Positions 1,346-45,609 of a stretch of DNA of 46,735 nt are shown here, one piece after another; within the stretch, counting starts at the first letter, position 1; every line of letters begins with the position of its first letter. The notes beneath the pieces are model-generated. The model did not search any database. It saw only the letters and a program-made list of their open reading frames with translations, and was not told where the DNA came from. The DNA lies in the NCBI GenBank assembly GCA_025056305.1, contig JANWWJ010000006.1, positions 1 to 46,735 of the forward strand, written 5' to 3'. Both the position numbers and the translations under genes were made by a program. The stretch comes from Chitinophagales bacterium (GTDB lineage: Bacteria; Bacteroidota; Bacteroidia; Chitinophagales; UBA10324).

Positions 1346-1348
1346 GGC

Positions 1349-1389
1349 TGATTGTATTACAATCAACTGGCGTGATTGTAATTACGTCA
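1349..1389 (-). promoter_or_regulatory. Twin palindromic operator candidate in front of dinB
   Basis: Positions 1349-1365 read TGATTGTATTACAATCA, a perfect 8-1-8 inverted repeat ending 3 bp before the dinB start codon. A second site at 1373-1389 begins with the same half-site TGATTGTA exactly 24 bp further on, but its other half is degenerate. Three copies of the half-site therefore lie in 41 bp, the layout expected for a dimeric repressor bound at tandem operators. No TAnnTTTG element is visible between these sites and the ATG. The regulator is unknown; a LexA-like or other damage-responsive repressor is an inference from the genes it precedes. Confidence 0.5.
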
Positions 1390-1434
1390 TTTTCGACGAC
1401 ACAAAAAAATTTTTGTTGCCGGAAAGGGGCCGTC

Positions 1435-7717: not shown

Positions 7718-8272
7718 TTAAGGCATGGCCGACCCCTCTAAACGGACCGTACCCCTGATTTTTCGGATTTTGTAGTTGGTCAGGTCTTCATTTGATTCAA
7801 AACCATCACCAAACATCATTTCATCACCCGTAGTAATGCGCACAAACTTATCGCTGTAAATGCGACGTGTCTTTTGATTCCAAATGAGCTCTTCAGTCTC
7901 CAATTTATCGCCGTTGATATTGGTAGCAACTACACGATTGCGGGCAATCATTTCATCGGCATGTTCATAGACCACCCCATAATCAGCCGTCAGGCGGCTC
8001 TGCTCTTGAAGTTTTTCATCAAAAAACCTCAAAAGCAATCCTTCGGGAAGTTCAGTCGTGATCTTCTCACCTTCCACAGTGCGCACCATGAGCGGGGCCT
8101 CCAATTCAGCCTTGATTTGTCCGGATTGACTATAAACCAATCTTACTTGATGAGCATGCTCTTTGTTGGGATCTTCCCCGGCGGTGATGCGTTTGATGGT
8201 GTCGGGGTCGCTGACACAGCTACCCATTACCCACAACAGAAAGAGCAACGAAATGCACTGCGTGCTGCTCAT
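7718..8272 (-). CDS. lptC: LptC-like LPS export lipoprotein
   Basis: 184 residues. A short signal peptide ends in VMGSC, giving a lipidated Cys19. The rest is the all-beta LptC/OstA-like fold, with strands such as GQIKAELEAPLMVRT, LTADYGVVYEHADEMIARNRV and KLETEELIWNQKTRRIYSDKFVRI. LptC passes lipopolysaccharide from the LptBFG transporter to the periplasmic LptA bridge. Bacteroidota versions are often lipoproteins, unlike the membrane-anchored E. coli protein. The ATG overlaps the stop of the upstream barrel gene by 4 bp (ATGA), so translation is coupled. Family assignment is good; the gene symbol is by homology only. Confidence 0.82.
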   Translation of the reverse strand: MSSTQCISLLFLLWVMGSCVSDPDTIKRITAGEDPNKEHAHQVRLVYSQSGQIKAELEAPLMVRTVEGEKITTELPEGLLLRFFDEKLQEQSRLTADYGVVYEHADEMIARNRVVATNINGDKLETEELIWNQKTRRIYSDKFVRITTGDEMMFGDGFESNEDLTNYKIRKIRGTVRLEGSAMP

Positions 8273-45000: not shown

Positions 45001-45609
45001 ATGCCTTTCCAGCTTCCACCTCTTCCCTATCCGTACCATGCCCTTGAGCCGCATATTGACGCAATGACCATGGAAATCCACCATGGAAAACACCACGGCA
45101 CCTATGTAGCCAACCTTAACAAGGCCTTGGAAGGACACGAAGCCGCCGAATGGCCAATCGAAAAAATTATGGAACAGGTGTCGCGTTTTCCGGTGGCCGT
45201 GCGCAACAATGGGGGTGGACATTACAACCACTCGCTGTTTTGGACTTTACTTAAACCCGGAGGCAGTGCACCGACGGGCGCAGTGCTCGAAGCCATTCAA
45301 CGAGAATTCGGCAGCTTTGACGCATTTCGCGATGCCTTCACACAAGCGGGCCTCAATCGGTTCGGCAGCGGCTGGGCCTGGCTCATTGTCAATGCCGAGA
45401 AAAAACTTCAGATTACCTCTACACCCAATCAAGATAATCCGCTGATGGATGTAGCAGAAGTGCGCGGCATCCCCGTTCTGGGCATGGACGTGTGGGAACA
45501 TGCCTATTACCTCAAATACCAGAACCGCCGTGCTGATTACATTAATGCTTTCTATAATGTAATCAATTGGGACGAGGTAAGCCGGCTGTATCAACAAGCC
45601 GTGAAATAA
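45001..45609 (+). CDS. sodA: Superoxide dismutase, probably Mn type
   Basis: 202 residues, standard. It converts superoxide to hydrogen peroxide and oxygen in the cytoplasm. Metal ligands are all present: His27 in EIHHGKHH, His77 in HYNHSLFW, Asp163 and His167 in MDVWEHAYY. The outer-sphere glutamine is Gln144 in PNQDNPLM, the Mn-enzyme position, whereas the Fe-type Gln near residue 70 is absent, which favours Mn or a cambialistic enzyme. It lies 48 bp after tadA and has its own promoter candidate. Confidence 0.96.

Follow-up and report, generated by a model that had tools for sequence, protein, structure and literature searches.

The gene dinB of this Chitinophagales bacterium is preceded by two palindromic sites, the nearer of which almost touches its start codon, and this raises the question which type of regulator these sites serve. 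The window, i.e. the whole stretch of DNA analysed here (46,735 nucleotides, G000:C6:1-46735), belongs to a genome bin of the Bacteroidota (G000) that comprises 2.41 Mb in 44 contigs with a completeness of 99.5%; the only congener compared is a second bin (G001). We consider it very probable that both 17-bp sites represent the double SOS box of the non-canonical LexA (CI-like XRE-S24) system of Bacteroidetes described by Sanchez-Osuna et al. in 2021 (PMC8565304), in a clade-specific variant with the dyad ATTG-N5-CAAT.

The features of the locus are collected in Table 1. The assignment of dinB was confirmed by Pfam (IMS 2e-45), with the ATG at 1345-1343 of the minus strand. That an SRAP gene follows dinB is borne out by tblastn similarity to the SRAP starts of relatives (e.g. 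L238, E 6e-5) for an N-terminal fragment of 49 codons, which gave no Pfam hit on its own. The perfect 17-bp inverted repeat that the original prediction had placed 3 bp before the dinB ATG was found at 1349-1365, and its half-site TGATTGTA is repeated from 1373, exactly 24 bp from the first site as had been claimed, where it forms part of a complete but imperfect 17-mer (TGATTGTAATTACGTCA, 1373-1389). In dinB direction the order reads TGACGTAATTACAATCA-CGCCAGT-TGATTGTAATACAATCA-GCC-ATG. The dyad is ATTG-TAATA-CAAT, i.e. a palindromic 4-N5-4 frame that is shared by the relatives.

Table 1. Features around the dinB promoter (positions refer to the window)
Feature	Position	Strand	Description
SRAP (YedK/HMCES-like) gene, first 49 codons	1..147	-	truncated by contig end; follows dinB
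dinB, Y-family DNA polymerase IV, 389 aa	176..1345	-	Pfam IMS, IMS_HHH_1, IMS_C
dinB intergenic region/promoter	1346..1434	-	89 bp, from upstream sulfatase stop to dinB ATG
operator B, dinB-proximal	1349..1365	-	perfect 17-bp palindrome TGATTGTAATACAATCA (dinB direction), forward-strand letters TGATTGTATTACAATCA; 3 bp before ATG
spacer between operators	1366..1372	.	7 bp, giving a 24-bp period
operator A, distal	1373..1389	-	TGACGTAATTACAATCA (dinB direction), imperfect

A palindrome of this kind alone is not rare (three arm-8 palindromes with a gap of 0-1 bp occur in the window versus 1.75 expected), but the pair is. With a matrix derived from relatives, these two sites included, they obtain the two best scores of the window and constitute its only pair above 3 bits at any spacing of 17-59 bp; the same matrix found no pair in 1 Mb of simulated sequence. 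Weak single matches of about 12 bits are located at 45549-45565 and 8127-8143; chance predicts about 0.5 such matches for the window. The matrix scan covered the window and the own genome was scanned for the box by pattern searches with mismatches. In its 2.41 Mb the operator B palindrome is unique at up to two mismatches, and three further matches at three mismatches are weak, none of them upstream of a recognisable repair gene. A recognisable Bacteroidota promoter element was not demonstrated at dinB, which counts against the operator reading.

For the analysis of conservation the dinB upstream regions of 114 loci were compared. Alignment of this region, as the original prediction had proposed, reveals the same two sites before dinB in the congener, in most genomes of the family and in further uncultured Bacteroidetes, and the double site is kept in relatives with protein identities of 54-86%. 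Of 32 promoters, a set that was partly picked by eye, 27 had two sites according to a leave-one-out matrix, with a spacing of either 24 bp (19) or 23 bp (8) and no other, and shuffled promoters contained two sites in 5/1080 cases, none at spacing 24. In view of this partial choice a second test of the fixed spacing relied on an order-wide pattern free of selection: the 24-bp double site is present in 7/16 genomes of the family versus 8/380 others of the order (reversed control 1/396), and we take these few matches outside the family as mostly due to chance. Between the own genome and the congener operator A is identical in 17/17 and operator B in 15/17 positions, whereas the spacer retains 1/7 and the upstream flank 12/20, which argues for selection on the sites and not on the region as a whole.

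The cognate repressor is found in the relatives. A gene with XRE-HTH and Peptidase_S24 domains divergently adjoins dinB in seven genomes of the family (G004, G005, G010, G012-G015), G003 possesses a dinB-dnaE2-repressor cluster, G007 a dnaE2-repressor operon and G008 a solitary repressor gene, each preceded by a double box of its own. Pfam assigns HTH_3 (7e-11 to 2e-12) and, over the cut-off, Peptidase_S24 to these proteins, and the S24 cleavage residues A115-G116, S153 and K192 (L174 numbering) are invariant. The structural model (mean pLDDT 62, around 90 over the first 40 residues) comprises a five-helix HTH N-terminus, a beta domain of S24 type and, at the C-terminus, a long helix; among solved structures it comes closest to a lambda-186 hybrid repressor, C-terminal domains of LexA, P22 c2 and SinR. 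These repressors are members of the non-canonical LexA family of Bacteroidetes (PMC8565304), so that the suggestion of an undescribed damage-responsive repressor has to be given up in favour of a family published in 2021.

In the relatives the double box precedes dinB, the dnaE2-repressor operon (G007) and the repressor gene itself, as well as umuDC (G006), an SRAP gene (G013; Pfam SRAP 2e-17) and an SplB-like radical-SAM gene of the PA0069 family (G007, G009, G011), where it overlaps the predicted frame start, so that translation may in truth begin further inside the frame. A strong single site is located upstream of recA in G004. The expectation that the motif recurs near other repair and repressor genes thus held for the relatives, with autoregulation and several SOS targets, but not for the own genome, in which the double box occurs at dinB only and both recA and the SplB-like gene are devoid of it. 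The targets given for the known motifs of the system are dinB, dnaE2, recA, umuDC, SplB and SRAP (PMC8565304). This match in targets argues that the ATTG-N5-CAAT double box is the SOS box of the clade, and the SOS-like operator of the original prediction, conserved before dinB and recurring at SOS genes and the repressor promoter of relatives, is retained at this level of sequence comparison. In G003 and G008 strong double boxes are immediately followed by small open reading frames that lack a Pfam match (L176:2603-2995 and L259:2283-2612; 130 and 109 aa in open frame); both are candidates for unknown SOS proteins.

How does this box relate to the operators already known? The motifs in the main text of PMC8565304 are CTAA-N5-TTAG, GGA-N5-TCC and TTAC-N5-GTAA. 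Repressors with the recognition helix RSTLNSYENG have a box of ATTG-N5-CAAT type in 13/18 cases, and at least two of the five exceptions (G003, G007) are internal operon genes with the box further upstream; exact CTAA-N5-TTAG was found in none of these 18 promoters, five showing it with one mismatch. Repressors of KRxxxGAYEE type are accompanied by CTAA-N5-TTAG within one mismatch in 28/31 (exactly in 23/31) and by the ATTG-N5-CAAT box in 0/31 cases, and those with SRAKLNSYENG by GATAC-N5-GTATC in 3/3. Judged from these counts, which include no correction for common descent, the operator class appears to track the class of the recognition helix. The window sites contain neither half of GGA-N5-TCC. 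As the diverged motif TTAC-N5-GTAA was accepted within the system by PMC8565304 itself, an operator other than CTAA-N5-TTAG indicates a variant and is compatible with membership. The variant ATTG-N5-CAAT is undescribed in the main text of that study, whose supplementary tables may list the motif.

With the published family the relatives' repressors share the combination of HTH_3 and S24, the Ala-Gly/Ser/Lys residues and the additional C-terminal helix, the divergent or operonic link to dinB/dnaE2, the 4-N5-4 dyad and the targets dinB, recA, umuDC, SRAP and SplB. They differ from the systems behind the motifs in the main text of PMC8565304 in the dyad itself and in the helix RSTLNSYENG; the constant tandem arrangement at 23-24 bp, too, is not discussed in this main text, in which the string "cooperativ" does not occur. 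Canonical LexA has an S24 domain and damage-gene targets in common with them, but it carries a winged HTH (PF01726) instead of the XRE/CI-type HTH, and none of the LexA boxes quoted in the introduction of PMC8565304 resembles the operator.

In contrast with the relatives, neither bin of the genus contains an S24 protein, a homologue of the repressor, dnaE2 or the remainder of the SRAP gene. Canonical LexA was rejected as regulator, because PF00717 (S24) has no match in G000 or G001 and a canonical LexA with S24 is thus also absent there. The own genome has a single clear XRE-type HTH gene (G000:C14:3372-3527, L233), which was likewise dismissed as repressor as it shows no S24 match; it follows a gene resembling a restriction-modification methyltransferase and has no link to the dinB operator. 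The contigs of both bins end at the same base just past dinB, their terminal 141 bases being identical and the first mismatch falling on base 142. An identical run of exactly 141 bases is what an assembler with k=141 leaves at a graph branch, and hence the shared sequence beyond the contig ends probably went into a contig of its own that was placed in neither bin. The missing downstream piece was searched for in plasmids and viral contigs and nothing was found. Positions 1-440, covering the 3' part of dinB and the SRAP start, are 98.6% identical to G001:C92:1-440 (L187; 6 mismatches), while 441-700 show about 75% identity (66 mismatches); this high identity together with the shared end reflects either recent exchange or an effect of the assembly graph. 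The assembled sequence is thus free of a repressor gene, but with both bins gapped past dinB the organism may still have one: the unbinned gap could hold it, and a true loss is possible.

Such a loss would turn the sites into a relic: the XRE-S24 repressor would have disappeared from the genus together with dnaE2 and the other regulon members, and the dinB box would be decaying or bound by another protein. The lack of repressor, S24 protein and dnaE2 in either bin fits this scenario, as do the restriction of the box to dinB in the own genome and the small regulons that PMC8565304 reports for clades near regulator loss. We nevertheless rate it as unlikely, since the nearly unchanged sites next to a strongly diverged spacer and flank in the congener are not expected for a relic, and since exactly the neighbourhood that often houses the repressor gene is cut off in both bins. 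Much less probable is translational control through a hairpin in the leader RNA of dinB in place of a protein-DNA operator. The proximal palindrome can indeed form a stem beside the start codon and site B even overlaps the ATG in several relatives, but across promoters the proximal site lies between -1 and 95 bp from the ATG, with the period between the sites fixed at 23-24 bp, divergent genes are served from the same boxes in either orientation and Rfam gave no match. A chance palindrome plus a chance repeat can practically be dismissed. Although about 1.75 arm-8 palindromes are expected per window of such size, coincidence is refuted by the conservation across genera, the fixed spacing and the family-specific excess over the control.

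The preferred reading thus remains the double SOS box of the non-canonical LexA system. As far as comparison of sequences can tell, relatives have the double sites at 23-24 bp, a cognate XRE-S24 repressor and a common SOS box, and the double box of the window is a real operator that looks functional, being a variant of the system described in 2021. Two repressor dimers would bind side by side on it and keep dinB-SRAP from being transcribed, acting at the start codon or immediately upstream of it. The operators OR1 and OR2 of phage lambda are also 17 bp long and arranged in tandem with a 24-bp period. This equal period suggests that the dimers probably bind cooperatively as lambda CI does at OR1-OR2, where adjacent CI dimers interact pairwise (PMC5880393). 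The likeness to lambda CI concerns the geometry of the operators, the CI-type HTH and the S24-type C-terminal domain, whereas the genes controlled here are chromosomal repair genes and neither a third operator nor looping was seen. Upon DNA damage the RecA filament would trigger self-cleavage of the repressor at Ala115-Gly116 by Ser153/Lys192 (L174 numbering) and dinB would be released; RecA-stimulated self-cleavage is established for S24 regulators (PMC8565304). For the own organism this scheme presumes a repressor gene outside the binned contigs.

It is conceivable, though we put this forward tentatively, that the chromosomal SOS repressor of the family binds its double operator with the fixed 24-bp period in cooperative pairs as in lambda, with a sharp, switch-like induction of the error-prone polymerase, and that the operator sequence has changed in concert with the recognition helix, leaving a readable helix-to-operator code across the SOS repressors of Bacteroidota. 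Because of the fixed pairing at 23-24 bp, a cooperative SOS switch of lambda type can be tested directly, and the operator classes that track the helix offer a natural series for how SOS repressors change their DNA target. In addition, a further SOS box is provided for a phylum whose SOS system was recognised only in 2021, the SOS regulons of uncultured Chitinophagales become predictable and the two small box-controlled proteins of unknown function represent candidate new damage-response genes.

Further operator variants were met among the compared loci. GATAC-N5-GTATC sites stand in tandem at 23 bp before dinB in L017, L019 and L025, the SRAKLNSYENG repressors being encoded in L019, L025 and L202, and this is another variant of the same tandem design. 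Flavobacteriales-type MAGs (L056, L057, L061, L065, L074, L075, L078, L092) have the palindrome AATGCCAA(C/T)TAAATTGGCATT before dinB, several of them with a KRTALGAYEEG repressor nearby, and L026 shows TTGACAA...TTGTCAA with IARTTLSSYEIG. In two genera the dnaE2-like polymerase adjoining the repressor has a 2'-5' RNA ligase (2H phosphoesterase) domain at its C-terminus (L177:1947-5591, L175:2217-6008).
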